DNA of 46,235 nt. It comes from Phormidesmis priestleyi Ana. Its GTDB lineage: Bacteria > Cyanobacteriota > Cyanobacteriia > Phormidesmidales > Phormidesmidaceae. Location: positions 1 through 46,235 of the forward strand of contig LJZR01000033.1 in assembly GCA_001314865.1 (NCBI GenBank), in the 5' to 3' direction. Below, piece by piece: positions 8,293 to 12,757 of this stretch. Under the pieces are notes generated by a model that ran no database searches, was not told the origin of the DNA, and saw only the letters and a program-made list of their open reading frames with translations. The position numbers were made by a program, and so were the translations under genes. Position 1 is the stretch's first letter. Every line of letters starts with the position of its first letter.

Positions 8293-9174
8293 ATGTCTGA
8301 AGATATAGCGGCTCAGCCTTTTTTCCATATGCCTGTGCTGGCTGAGCAGGTGATAGAGGGCCTGCAAATAAAAGCGGGTGGGCGATATTTAGATGCTACA
8401 GTCGGCGGCGCTGGTCACAGTGAGCTGATTTTAAAGGCTGCGCCCGATGTGCAGCTGGTTGCGCTAGATCAAGACTTACAGGCGTTGGCGGCGGCTCAGG
8501 CGCGGCTGGCTGAGTTTGGCGATCGCGTGACCTTTTGCCACACCAATTTTGCTCGCTATGCGCCTGATGGCTTACGGTTCGACGGCATTTTGGCCGACAT
8601 TGGCGTCAGCTCAACGCAGCTGGATCAGTCGCATCGGGGGTTTAGCTTTCGGGCGGAAGCGCCGTTGGATATGCGGATGGATACGACCCAAGCGCTCACG
8701 GCTGAGGAAATTGTGAACCACTGGGATGAGAAAACGCTGGCCGATACGATTTATGAATATGGTGAGGAGCGGTTGTCGCGGCGAATTGCTCGGCGAATTG
8801 TAGAGAAGCGGCCTTTTCATACGACGACGGCGTTGGCTTGGGAGGTGGCGGGGGCGTTTCCGGCAAAGGCGCGGCATGGGCGCATTCATCCGGCAACGCG
8901 GACGTTTCAGGCGCTGCGAATTGCGGTGAATGGGGAGCTAAAGGTGCTGGAGGAATTTTTGGCGATCGCGCCGGACTGGCTCACGGTGGGCGGGCGGCTG
9001 GCGTTAATTAGCTTTCACAGTTTGGAGGATCGGATTGTGAAGTATGCCTATCGGGGCGATGAGCGGTTGCAGATTGTGACGAAAAAGCCGCTAGTGGCGA
9101 CGGCTGAAGAGGTGCAGGAAAATCCGCGATCGCGCTCTGCCAAACTCAGAGTAGCGGAACGGATTTTGGTTTGA
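8293..9174 (+). CDS. rsmH: 16S rRNA (cytosine-1402-N4)-methyltransferase RsmH
   Basis: A 293-residue SAM-dependent methyltransferase (formerly MraW) acting on C1402 in the decoding centre of the small ribosomal subunit. Motifs: [13 protein letters not shown] at the N-terminus, the SAM-binding loop [16 protein letters not shown] near residue 33, [23 protein letters not shown] near 97, [17 protein letters not shown] near 125, [19 protein letters not shown] near 194, and [13 protein letters not shown] near 239. The ATG at 8293 is 148 bp from the divergent ndhH start, so the two share an upstream region. It is not within a dcw cluster, which is common in cyanobacteria. Confidence 0.96.
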
Positions 9175-9212
9175 GCGGGTGTGGATTTAAGCGGGTTCGA
9201 AAAGATCGCTAT

Positions 9213-11876
9213 TCAGCCGAGCTGGTTCAGGTCTTTAATGAGCAAAAGCAGTTCTGTAGGGTAGCTGTGCTCACTGCTGAGGTTGCGATAATGCAGACGG
9301 TCTAGCTCGTCGGGAATATCACAGTCTTGAATGAGTACGGGCAGGATAGTTGTTTCAGCCATTCTGGCCATTTCTAGTTCCCATTCCACATATTTAGACG
9401 CTACGGCTTTGGGCGTTAGCAGCAATACAACCGCCTTAACCTGACGCAGCGCAGTTCGCAATTGTACTTTCCACTCTTGGCCGCCCTGCATGTTTTCAAT
9501 ATCTCGCCATACAGCAAATCCGGCTGATGTCATTTCTTGGCGGAGTCTTTCGGCGGCTGGGTTGCCATCTTCACGGGCATAAGAGATGAAGATATCTAGC
9601 GAGGACTGTAGCGAGGATGGGGCGGGCGTGAGGGGCGCGGGGGCATTGATTTGTGTCTCAATTTTGTCGCGTCCGATTTTGTCGCCTGCTATATTGTCGC
9701 CTTGGCCAAATTGGTTGATGGTGGTAGACATATCGGTTGTTTGTTCTTGGTATTGTTGGGCGGGAAAGTTGACGGCAATTTCAACTTTGTTGGAGAAGGG
9801 AGAATTTTGAGGTGCTGGTGCTTTGTAAGGTGATTGGTGAGTTGACGCAAAAGCGATAGAGGCGTCTGAGTGGTCGGACGAGCGGTCGGGCGAGCGGTTG
9901 GGTGAGCGGTCGGGTGAACGGTCAAAAGAGGGTTCTATGACATCATCAATGAGATGACGGACATTGACCATTTCAAAGCTTTTCTGGCACTGAACTTCAA
10001 GGTTTCGTTTGGAGAGGGATTTTTGGAGAACGGGGTAGGCGAACTGATATGGGGTTTGGCTGGGTTTGCATTCGGGGCAGTTGCAAGGGATGCGGGTTTC
10101 GTAGTTGAGGTTGTTGAAGGAGCTATGAATTCTTTCGAGTTCGTGGCCGATGATGGAGAGAAGGCGTTTTTTGTCGGTGCCGCAGATGCGGATGCGAATG
10201 TGGGCGGCTTCGTAGCGCACATCTTCGATGACTTCGGCACGGGCGCTGCCGATGGAGAGGACGACGCCATGCTTCCATACCAGAATTTGGTTTTCGATGT
10301 AGCGATGGAGGGCCACAATGAAGCGAGGAAAGATGTTTTTGGGTTTGAAGGGATAGTAGTAGGAGAGAATGAGATTGTCTTGCTCGTCCCAGCGGTATTG
10401 ATGTTCTTGCGGTAGGTTGGCTTCTAGCAGGTGGGGCGCAATGTAGTGTTGTTTGCGCCCGATGATCTCGTAGGCGACTTCAAATTCTTGCATGAGGGCG
10501 AGCAGTTCGCCTCGCACATCGGCATATTGGTGGTCGCTCCAAATTTCTTGTAGATCTGCCTGGTTAAAGCGTCCGCAGTTTTTTCGCACTTTGGGGGTGT
10601 CGAGTACTTTGTAAACGGCGTCGGTGCTCCAGGCGGGGGTCAGAAAGATGGTTTTGGCGAGCTGATCGATGTCTTGAAAGTGGAGAAATACGCCGAGCTG
10701 ATGTAAAAAGCGGCTGAGGCGATCTTGTTCGTTGCGGGTGGGGATGCCTTGGGCTGTGCAGATTTGGCGGTAGTCTTGAATGGAGATGTAGTGGTCGCTG
10801 CCGAGGGCTTGGTTTTCTAAGACGCTGCGGACTTGTGCCCAGGTTTTGGGGAGTGGGTCGCCCACGTGAGGGAGGTTGCTGATGTATTGTTCGAGTGTGG
10901 TTTTGACGGTTTCGAGGTTGCGCTTGCTGGCAAAGTTGGTTTCAAGGCTGTCTTTGAGGTTTTTGAACTGGCCGCGTAGCTGCATGTCGGGCACGGAGCA
11001 GGGGCGGTCTTGTTTTTCGTTTTTAATGAGTAGGACGGGGCTGTCGCCACCGTGGAGCTGAATGGCATTTAGCCAAAAGTAAAAGTCGGTGTTTTCCTTG
11101 CGAGAGTCGGCGACAAGGGCGTAGACGGCGCGTTCGCTGAGGAAGAATTGATGGGTCGCGTGGTAGATTTCTTGGCCGCCGAAGTCCCAGATGTTGACTT
11201 TGCAGCGGTGCCCGCTAGGATGGTCGAACTCGTAGGGGATGACTTCAATGCCTTCGGTGGATTTTTCGTCTTTGTTGAGTTCGTAGTTTGGATCAATCAG
11301 TTTTTTGGCGAGGGTGGTTTTGCCTGCGCCGCCTTCGCCGACGATGATGAGTTTGGCTTCGTAAAGCGGTGTGTCTGATTTTTCTTGAAAGTAGTAGTTA
11401 ATGACATCGGCGGCAGGTGCAGGTTTGTTGTATCGATGCTTGCCGCCGAGCACTTCGGGGGGAATGGGCAATCGATTTGCTCGTAGATCTAATGTTTTGA
11501 GCGTGAATAATTTTTGCACCCAGTCAGGGAGGGAGGAGATCTTGTTATTCCATAGGTCGAGCGATGCCAATCTGGAGAGCTGTCCGACGCTTTCGGGCAA
11601 GCTGCTCAGTTGGTTGTTACTGAGGGAGAGCGATGTCAAGCTGGAGAGCTGTCCGACGCTTTCGGGCAAGCTGCCCAGTTGGTTGTTACTGAGGGAGAGC
11701 GATGTCAAGCTGGAGAGCTGGCCGACGCTTTCGGGCAAGGTGCTCAGTTGGTTGTTACTGAGGTCGAGCGATGTCAAACTGGAGAGCTGTCCGACGCTTT
11801 CAGGCAAGCTGCTCAGTTGGTTGTTACTGAGGTAGAGCGATGTCAAGCTGGTGAGCTGGCCGACGCTTTCGGGCAA
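9213..11876 (-). CDS. ROCO-TIR protein, downstream piece: LRR-Roc-COR-linker-TIR (frameshifted from 11882-12757)
   Basis: An 887-codon open frame whose apparent TTG start lies in the middle of an LRR, so it is a continuation of the piece ending at 11882 and not an independent gene. Order of domains: six 23-residue LRRs (1-145); Roc GTPase (about 172-340) with P-loop GEGGAGKT (180-187), switch DFGGQE (231-236) and a degenerate G4 (IKNEKQD, 284-290); COR region (about 350-590); CNCPEC cysteine cluster (598-603), possibly metal-binding; RSPDRSPN-type linker (652-668); GQGDNIAGDKIGRDKI motif (725-739); C-terminal TIR domain (760-865) starting DIFISYARED, with a candidate NADase Glu in SKYVEWELEMA (E833). 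TIR-ROCO architecture suggests signalling or defence, by family inference only. Confidence 0.85.
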   Translation of the reverse strand: MPESVGQLTSLTSLYLSNNQLSSLPESVGQLSSLTSLDLSNNQLSTLPESVGQLSSLTSLSLSNNQLGSLPESVGQLSSLTSLSLSNNQLSSLPESVGQLSRLASLDLWNNKISSLPDWVQKLFTLKTLDLRANRLPIPPEVLGGKHRYNKPAPAADVINYYFQEKSDTPLYEAKLIIVGEGGAGKTTLAKKLIDPNYELNKDEKSTEGIEVIPYEFDHPSGHRCKVNIWDFGGQEIYHATHQFFLSERAVYALVADSRKENTDFYFWLNAIQLHGGDSPVLLIKNEKQDRPCSVPDMQLRGQFKNLKDSLETNFASKRNLETVKTTLEQYISNLPHVGDPLPKTWAQVRSVLENQALGSDHYISIQDYRQICTAQGIPTRNEQDRLSRFLHQLGVFLHFQDIDQLAKTIFLTPAWSTDAVYKVLDTPKVRKNCGRFNQADLQEIWSDHQYADVRGELLALMQEFEVAYEIIGRKQHYIAPHLLEANLPQEHQYRWDEQDNLILSYYYPFKPKNIFPRFIVALHRYIENQILVWKHGVVLSIGSARAEVIEDVRYEAAHIRIRICGTDKKRLLSIIGHELERIHSSFNNLNYETRIPCNCPECKPSQTPYQFAYPVLQKSLSKRNLEVQCQKSFEMVNVRHLIDDVIEPSFDRSPDRSPNRSPDRSSDHSDASIAFASTHQSPYKAPAPQNSPFSNKVEIAVNFPAQQYQEQTTDMSTTINQFGQGDNIAGDKIGRDKIETQINAPAPLTPAPSSLQSSLDIFISYAREDGNPAAERLRQEMTSAGFAVWRDIENMQGGQEWKVQLRTALRQVKAVVLLLTPKAVASKYVEWELEMARMAETTILPVLIQDCDIPDELDRLHYRNLSSEHSYPTELLLLIKDLNQLG

Positions 11877-12475
11877 GCTGCTCAGTTGGGGTTGTAACGG
11901 AGGTAGAGCGATGTCAAGCTGGTGAGCTGTCCGACGATATCGGGCAAGGTGCTCAGTTGGTTGTTACTGAGGTCGAGCGATGTCAAGCTGGTGAGCTGGC
12001 CGATGCTTTCGGGCAAGCTGCTCAGTTGGTTGTTCCATAGGTTGAGCGATGTCAAGTTGGAGAGCTGGCCGACGATGTCGGACAAGGTGCTCAGTTGGTT
12101 GTCACTGAGGTAGAGTGATCGCAAGTTGGAGAACTGTCCGACGCTTTCGGGCAAGCTGCTCAGTTGGTTGGAGCTGAGGTAGAGCGATCGTAAGTTGGAG
12201 AACTGTCCGACGCTTTCGGGCAAGGTGCTCAGTTGGTTGGAACTGAGGTTGAGCGATCGCAAGTTGGAGAGCTGTCCGACACTTTCGGGCAAGCTGCTCA
12301 GTTGGTTTTTACGGAGGTAAAGCGATCGCAAGTTGGAGAGCTGTCCGACGCTTTCGGGCAAGCTGCTCAGTTGGTTTTTACGGAGGTAGAGCGATCGCAA
12401 GTTGGAGAGCTGTCCGACGACATCGGGCAAGGTGCTCAGTTGGTTGTAACTGAGGTTGAGCGATCGCAACTTCCC
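11560..12475. repeat. 69-bp near-identical tandem repeat array encoding LRRs
   Basis: About thirteen consecutive 69-bp units (23 codons each), many differing by only a few bases. Neighbouring copies share the core CAGTTGGTTGTTACTGAGG almost exactly. LRRs normally diverge at DNA level, so this uniformity indicates recent expansion or gene conversion. The 2-nt frameshift lies inside this array, at about 11889. Confidence 0.9.
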
Positions 12476-12757
12476 TAAACTGCCAACGACTTCTGGCAGT
12501 TCGGTAAACTGATTGTAGGGAAGAAAAAGCGATCTCAATTCCGTCAACGCTGCTAGTTCATCCGGCAGCGTCTTCAAACGATTACCAAGCGGTTCGCTAT
12601 TTTCCTTATCCCAGCGCCCCAACACCAACGTCTTCAAATTCGTCAGCTTCTTAATCTCCGGCGGCAGTACCTCTAGCCCCTGCCCAGACAAATCCAGGGT
12701 TGGCCGCCCATCAGCCGCCGCCTCATCAATCAGCCTAAGCAATTCGTCTTGAGTCAC
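11882..12757 (-). CDS. ROCO-TIR protein, upstream LRR piece (frameshifted)
   Basis: A 291-codon frame with GTG start at 12757. It opens with a short helical cap (TQDELLRLIDEAAADGRPTLDLSGQGLEVLPPEI) typical of the N-terminus of cyanobacterial LRR-ROCO proteins, then about eleven LRRs of consensus LxxLxSLxLxxNQLSxLPExVGQ. It ends in the middle of an LRR: where the repeat should read NQLSSLPES the sequence reads NPN and stop. Comparing DNA repeats, two extra bases (GG at about 11889-11890 on the plus strand) cause this. Removing them joins both pieces into about 1180 residues with about 18 LRRs. Either a sequencing error, a recent mutation, or a switchable state would fit. Confidence 0.85.
   Translation of the reverse strand: MTQDELLRLIDEAAADGRPTLDLSGQGLEVLPPEIKKLTNLKTLVLGRWDKENSEPLGNRLKTLPDELAALTELRSLFLPYNQFTELPEVVGSLGKLRSLNLSYNQLSTLPDVVGQLSNLRSLYLRKNQLSSLPESVGQLSNLRSLYLRKNQLSSLPESVGQLSNLRSLNLSSNQLSTLPESVGQFSNLRSLYLSSNQLSSLPESVGQFSNLRSLYLSDNQLSTLSDIVGQLSNLTSLNLWNNQLSSLPESIGQLTSLTSLDLSNNQLSTLPDIVGQLTSLTSLYLRYNPN

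Follow-up and report, generated by a model that had tools for sequence, protein, structure and literature searches.

The locus described here lies in a 46,235-nucleotide stretch of DNA from Phormidesmis priestleyi Ana (contig LJZR01000033.1, positions 1 to 46,235), referred to as the window. Between positions 9213 and 12757 two open reading frames (ORFs), arranged head to tail on the minus strand, encode the parts of a Roco protein, with leucine-rich repeats (LRRs), a Roc GTPase and a COR region, that ends in a TIR domain. A short motif containing GDNIAGDKI, here called the GD motif, lies between COR and TIR, and in relatives it recurs at the end of receptors and at the start of adjacent effector modules. 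The features are as follows (values after family names are Pfam E-values):

12757-11882, minus strand: first ORF, 291 residues, GTG start, with N-terminal LRRs only (LRR_8, 2.4e-45)
about 11876-11890, minus strand: frame change site within the LRR array, for which assembly error, mutation and decay are all candidates
11876-9213, minus strand: second ORF, 887 residues from TTG, with the last LRRs, Roc, COR, linker and TIR
11457-11876, minus strand: last LRR units (Pfam and LRR pattern)
11016-11354, minus strand: Roc GTPase domain (2.3e-25; 7.9e-26 in the genome search), with GEGGAGKT and DFGGQE
10425-10850, minus strand: COR-A domain (8.3e-43)
9942-10379, minus strand: COR-B domain (6.7e-37), holding CxCxxC at 10068-10085 and a fourth Cys at 9987-9989
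9642-9731, minus strand: GD motif, MSTTINQFGQGDNIAGDKIGRDKIETQIN, between COR and TIR
9267-9593, minus strand: C-terminal TIR domain (TIR_2, 2.9e-22; profile matches to AbTir and SARM1)
9378-9380, minus strand: codon for Glu 833 of the 887-residue ORF, the candidate catalytic residue, in YVEWEL

Roc, COR-A, COR-B and TIR_2 were found by Pfam in that order in the 887-residue ORF, and LRRs in both ORFs (LRR_8 at 1.5e-20 in the second). With Roc followed by COR the protein is a Roco, and with N-terminal LRRs that span the frame change, Roc-COR and a variable C-terminal effector it falls into the AP-GTPase class. An earlier interpretation of the DNA, made without database searches (the sequence-only reading), had described a giant, reconstructed LRR-Roc-COR-TIR gene. 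The hidden Markov model search bears out the description as a whole, including the bacterial Roco with a TIR output, and the gene is indeed a reconstruction, there being no single open frame. The sequence landmarks that had been named were all located in the 887-residue ORF (GEGGAGKT at residue 180, DFGGQE at 231, CNCPEC at 598 and the GDNIAGDKI-type linker in the GD motif at 716), as were FISYA at 763 and VEWEL at 830-834. The count of about 18 LRRs is fair (9 + 5 units by a strict pattern, and partial ones besides); the word giant is generous, a paralog having an open frame of 1,332 codons. LRR matches to secreted effectors and internalins were dismissed as repeat likeness. The G4 motif of Roc reads NEKQD in the window and NEKxD in relatives L007 and L008; the usual motif, NKxD, is one residue shorter. 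L008 (5794-8940) is itself a Roco of a cyanobacterial metagenome-assembled genome, with a long N-terminal part that by eye is not LRR-like and almost no tail beyond COR-B. The four-Cys pattern in COR-B is perhaps a zinc site peculiar to this branch. CxCxxC followed by a later Cys within 45 residues was seen in 42 of the 50 Rocos whose match reached position 470 of the Roc-COR query.

The Roc-to-TIR part of the protein has a match in at least 84 of 115 genomes, the window's own included (up to nine candidates were scored per genome). All Roc-COR rows listed down to an E-value of 3.1e-44 were taken except G022:C371:14109, G022:C422 and G024:C761; one weaker row, G045:C179, was added and other weaker rows were left out. 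ORFs reaching at least position 420 of the 485-residue Roc-COR query, L007 and L008 included, give a set of 88 Roco ORFs. A tree of 85 rows, with L173 added, was built with FastTree; long branches were flagged, and tail classes were assigned by letter patterns, not by Pfam, with 'other' tails treated as one class. The tails are TIR domains of two other kinds (23 and 10), GD motif tails, either terminal (11) or internal (6, the window's TIR included), EAD1-like (5), helical type B (5), helical type A (2), CHAT (3), DUF4062 (3) and other (17). A TIR is carried by 34 of the 85 proteins, one of them cut short (L102), and some of the 'other' tails may hold one too (L116). The tail class changes at least 32 times on the tree, an extensive swapping of effectors, and the window's genome itself has a paralogous Roco with another tail. 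Four Rocos (L119, L120, L122 and L154) end in a tail fitting a DUF4062-like letter pattern, which we take to be DUF4062. That family has been called a TIR-like NADase family in the abstract of a preprint (PMC13174449).

A section of Kaur et al. 2021 (PMC8195603) treats prokaryotic LRR-AP-GTPase-COR proteins as predicted counter-invader systems; it puts the number of C-terminal domains that they carry at 24 or more and names TIR as one of these. As described in that section, the class shares LRR, Roc, COR and a C-terminal effector with the window protein, and differs from it in that the window gene is frame-broken. Since the TIR tail is common among relatives and the class is published, the LRR-Roc-COR-TIR architecture is that of an ordinary member, and the suggestion that it was unusual is not supported. 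The parallel drawn to the effector logic of TIR-bearing nucleotide-binding LRR receptors (NLRs) fares better; the same kind of function is predicted for the class in that section.

The GD motif was modelled over 31 positions from seven rows: the window, C88 (a second Roco of the same genome), two from G001, and one each from G003, G018 and G096. In its own genome the model matches the window (9.5e-19) and C88 (1.3e-17), both by construction; the window's E-value proves nothing alone, because the window's row is in the model. At a threshold of 0.001 the model matches 26 of the 115 genomes, namely 19 of the 63 in the window's family and 7 of the 52 outside it. Of these, 21 had contributed no row, and it finds like stretches at like places in these other genomes. 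With a model of 28 rows and a threshold of 0.0001, a match is obtained in 9 out of 386 genomes sampled from the phylum, one of them the window's own. By these counts the motif is mainly a feature of the window's family. The core pattern occurs in only 35 of 44,000 shuffled Roco tails and, given this low rate together with the matches at like places elsewhere, chance does not account for the GD motif. In three of the effectors described below (L038, L085 and L086) it is covered by no Pfam model, and an exact-string literature search returned no papers for its strings, with the limit that figures and supplements may print them. The motif also joins other modules, as in trypsin-GD-NACHT-HEAT (L096), pentapeptide repeats-GD-helical end (L097) and LRR-pentapeptide-GD-helical end (L092). 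At L174 a motif pair is present with no Roco in view: the GD motif closes the first ORF (1-624, truncated at the contig end) and stands in the second (832-1479) ahead of a helical end like type B.

The position of the motif in the 88 Roco ORFs is coupled to the presence of a neighbouring gene. The motif is terminal in 11, with its core starting 16-20 residues before the stop, and in ten of these a motif-bearing ORF follows within 1.5 kb downstream on the same strand; the eleventh (L161) ends 194 bases from a contig end. In six further Rocos the motif is internal and followed by a fused effector domain, and none of these has a partner ORF. Among the 71 Rocos without the motif a partner is found once (L091, where an intervening ORF carries the terminal motif). 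Thus, 10 of 11 terminal-motif Rocos have a partner ORF vs 1 of 77 of the rest (Fisher 2.6e-11, a value that is too small because the loci are related and the pattern was chosen with the data in view). An earlier core pattern, which gave a Fisher p of 0.14, missed known motifs and was replaced by the final one. Each of the two large Roc-COR clades includes Rocos with a terminal motif, as does one genome from outside the family (L173). With L173, L088 and L091 the pairs total 13, three of which are imperfect: the Roco is in pieces in L047 and L088, and in L091 the motif lies on the ORF in between. In 8 of the 13 a DUF4926-like pattern, confirmed by Pfam in L038, precedes the effector's motif in the same open frame, so that in these cases the motif stands at the start of the effector module but not of the ORF. 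The text of section 15 of PMC8195603 holds nothing on the GD motif, on split pairs that share a motif or on fusion and fission between them. The sequence-only reading had recognised the motif by name but passed over it as a linker; its recurrence at receptor ends and effector starts makes it the most informative part of the protein.

Since the motif stands at the receptor end and at the start of the adjacent effector, it most likely makes receptor and effector stick together. An alternative, which we consider unlikely, is that it is a mere flexible linker, or a recombination seam for effector swaps, without a binding function. The motif does lie at the receptor/effector junction, effectors turn over rapidly, there is no cognate specificity within pairs, and in fused Rocos the motif is preceded by a Met that resembles the one at which free effector modules start, all of which a linker or seam would accommodate. 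What it would not call for is conservation right at the receptor terminus where the effector is encoded by an ORF of its own. Mean identity over the 13 receptor ends is 64% for the 18-residue motif vs 17% for the preceding 18 residues, and the motif is the better conserved of the two in 73 of 78 comparisons; in the 73 comparisons with unlike flanks (<50%) the values are 63% and 12%, although the windows were picked by the core pattern, in which two residues are fixed and four narrowed, and this explains part, not all, of the 63%. Moreover, identity within pairs is about the same for DNA (0.66) as for protein (0.63), so the motif is not a recent duplication of DNA.

In the window the motif is internal and starts with Met, as do free effector modules, and it resembles the effector side (11.7 of 18 positions) slightly more than the receptor side (9.9 of 18). 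Its effector-side likeness and opening Met suggest that it probably came in with the effector that was fused on. The window's is the only TIR among motif-bearing Rocos, and its motif is identical to that of the second fused Roco of the same genome at 13 of 18 positions. A hidden internal start at the motif Met, from which a free TIR would be made, was considered and rejected for the window (upstream anti-Shine-Dalgarno binding -0.5 kcal/mol). Linker ATGs as a group had a mean of -2.0 kcal/mol (n 132), scarcely different from the -1.8 (n 541) of other internal ATGs. Apart from this, of 10 Rocos whose tail is a fused helical effector of type A or B, nine (L034, L037, L089, L117, L144, L148, L150, L152 and L153) have a Shine-Dalgarno-like stretch (-5.7 to -10.3 kcal/mol) ahead of the start of the effector module (ATG, or GTG in L152); for comparison, 7.8% of 561 other internal ATGs reach -5.5, the start codons having been picked by eye. 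The stretch is missing in L039 (-4.5) and before other fused tails, such as those of L035, L036, L048, L143, L158 and the window. Initiation at this internal codon may thus yield the helical effector as a free protein too in those nine relatives.

The TIR domain was compared with solved structures by means of a profile of the window and five related TIR proteins (46-56% identical), which matched AbTir at 7.8e-9 and SARM1 at 1.2e-8. Glu 833 is invariant in all six rows of the alignment, and its counterparts in the solved structures are the Glu of WTEYEL in AbTir and a Glu of SARM1, as the claim of a candidate NADase Glu had anticipated. The SARM1 residue is presumably E642. In passages of PMC11374754 the NADase activity of AbTir is reported to depend on E208 of the WxxxE motif in the C-helix, and mutation of the Trp in this motif to abolish activity in AbTir but not in TcpC. 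Provided that the aligned Glu is E208, two further AbTir residues reported as required, S140 and D167, are conserved in the gap-free alignment. NADase activity of the window TIR is likely. Alternatively, the TIR could be a scaffold or a maker of a signal (e.g. cyclic ADP-ribose) in stress or developmental signalling, and not an NAD-depleting weapon. A Tyr replaces Trp in the WxxxE motif, the scanned flanking genes are housekeeping or metabolic, and there is a weak match to Thoeris type III ThcB4 (NF058526; 53.2 bits against a cut-off of 220), Thoeris TIRs being makers of signals. The best matches among solved structures are nevertheless NAD-cleaving TIRs, and patchy distribution with swapped effectors suits conflict genes better than development, so that we regard the scaffold or signal role as quite improbable.

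Searches of other profile collections added little. For the window protein PADLOC returned the TIR domains of unrelated entries (best SAVED_TIR, 5.4e-16), along with weak matches to P-loops or repeats, and the relatives gave the same picture; every NCBIfam match was below its cut-off, and PHROGs matches at the end of the window protein were to families of unknown function (best 4.2e-9). The nearest TIR relatives are stand-alone TIR proteins (L029 2011-2574, L030 316-960, L031 3581-4213 and L032 4358-5002), which end in another Gly/Asn-rich motif, e.g. SIGGN...TGDGN; a Pfam match to EAD10 at the end of L030 is sub-threshold (0.0059).

Overall, we favour on balance the view that the window gene is an accessory immune-type receptor, a single-chain Roco in which the GD motif is the assembly seam. 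The LRRs would bind a ligand and the Roc-COR GTPase would be the switch, undergoing a GTP-dependent rearrangement as expected from its family. The GD motifs would thereby be exposed and stack, as their sharing between receptor ends and effector starts suggests. In the window protein the motif would stick receptors to each other and cluster their TIRs, and the clustered TIRs would cleave NAD+ and so stop the cell, NAD+ cleavage being the only step with a residue-level basis. The interpretation offered by the sequence-only reading, a defence or death protein with LRR sensor, GTPase switch and TIR output, is partly supported: the Roco, the TIR output, the candidate Glu and the effector logic are supported, but the unusualness of the architecture, a working state of this copy and a defence role are not.

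Several observations speak against our view. No separate motif partner was found in the window's genome, which yielded only the second fused Roco and a weak 14-residue match (E 0.011, with the core pattern not found in its region). Within pairs there is no cognate matching of motifs (permutation p 0.14 for all 13 and 0.53 for a thinned set of nine), and the free effectors seen in pairs have a helical look and include no TIR. In the TIR itself the WxxxE motif is incomplete (YVEWE, with Tyr in place of AbTir W204), and R151 of AbTir, reported as required in passages of PMC11374754, aligns to Glu in the window; a single-sequence AlphaFold prediction of the TIR (mean confidence, pLDDT, 46.9) gave no usable model. 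By Pfam, no defence gene was recognised among 15 other window ORFs that were scanned, in agreement with the remark that the flanks are not defence genes. Finally, the receptor frame is broken in the window copy, and the branch leading to its Roc-COR is long (0.56), a length compatible with relaxed constraint.

The last two points bear on a further explanation, that the gene is a decayed, non-functional copy in which a frame change in the repetitive LRR array abolished the receptor and only the domains remain. In the three minus-strand frames of 9213-12757 the longest stop-free runs are 916, 291 and 125 codons, and these runs, with the two ORFs in different frames, place a single frame change within the LRR array; the frames were analysed unjoined and unmended. 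Either a fault in the sequencing or the death of the gene could account for the frame change. Two ORFs, the long branch, the failure to find the gene beside rsmH in six of six congeners (see below) and the occurrence of relatives that are also in pieces (L047, L088, L124, L125, L160 and L161) fit decay. Yet the second ORF's frame is open across 916 codons with its key motifs kept. The LRRs are encoded by a 69-bp tandem array (11554-12464; 13.2 copies, 88% matches), and near-identical repeats in a draft of 136 contigs are a likely site of assembly error. No close ortholog was met against which to weigh assembly error and mutation (best Roc-COR identity in the tree, 58%). Weighing both sides, we think decay improbable, and retain an accessory receptor as the preferred explanation.

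The motif-sharing pairs invite comparison with the bacterial NLR/Bell amyloid pairs (BASS1-10), in which, according to passages of PMC7889193, PMC8086366 and PMC12261475, adjacent receptor and effector genes share a short motif. TIR and CHAT effectors are noted there (PMC7889193), and the motif is placed at the N-terminus of the NLR and the C-terminus of the effector (PMC12261475). The 13 Roco pairs of relatives likewise have a short motif common to two adjacent genes, the window being a fused form. They differ in that the receptor is a Roc-COR GTPase and not an NLR, and that the motif is at the receptor C-terminus and the start of the effector module, i.e. with the ends reversed; an amyloid fold of the GD motif is putative. 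The GD motif may be identical with one of BASS1-10. As a tentative proposal, which we put at somewhat less than an even chance, the GD motif would be a signalling module not described before, and would probably be a short beta repeat that stacks on itself. Through it Roco receptors would recruit effectors by receptor-to-effector templating outside NLRs, in which the C-terminus of the receptor meets the start of the effector, the two being encoded by neighbouring genes or fused in a single chain. The window protein, the single-chain version with a TIR, could co-assemble via the motif with the second fused Roco of the same genome. Whether signalling amyloids act in NLR-independent pathways is posed as an open question in a passage of PMC7889193. 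If the proposal is true, Roco pairs make such amyloids testable, and motif templating between receptor and effector extends from NLRs to GTPase receptors. The architecture alone is one more member of a described class; the shared motif, a short and testable element, would matter more, as with it a bacterial relative of the LRRK2 GTPase core may hand on its signal to an effector that is a protein of its own.

The LRR-Roc-COR core is similar in sequence to solved bacterial Rocos and to LRRK2. With the whole sequence, LRRs included, it matches PDB 6hlu at 1.6e-72 and LRRK2 at 2.3e-44. The solved bacterial Roco entries (6hlu, 8r4b and 3dpu) are listed as 'Rab family protein', and we take them to be CtRoco. 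Unlike these and LRRK2, the window protein has a C-terminal TIR, the four-Cys pattern in COR-B and the G4 motif NEKQD, and no kinase was found in it. In plant TIR-NLRs a single chain holds an LRR sensor, a nucleotide switch and a TIR as output; the window protein has the same three functions in reversed domain order, with a Roc GTPase for NB-ARC, which makes this an analogy and not a kinship.

The neighbours of the gene are a nuoD-like gene, rsmH (MraW family) and the chromate transporter gene chrA, the first named from its sequence and the other two by Pfam. Enolase and a molybdenum hydroxylase set are among ten further ORFs of the window that were scanned with Pfam. All of six congeners have rsmH, with the nuoD-like gene beside it in five and a contig end in the sixth, and neither the Roco gene nor chrA was found in the 2.3 to 8 kb past rsmH in any of the six. 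The Roco gene is therefore accessory. The sequence GCGATCGC, which we take to be the cyanobacterial HIP1 site, occurs 65 times in the 46-kb window against one expected, which points to a cyanobacterial host. The longest stretch of the window free of it, 9133-12253 (3.1 kb), spans the Roc-COR-TIR part and could reflect a recent arrival.

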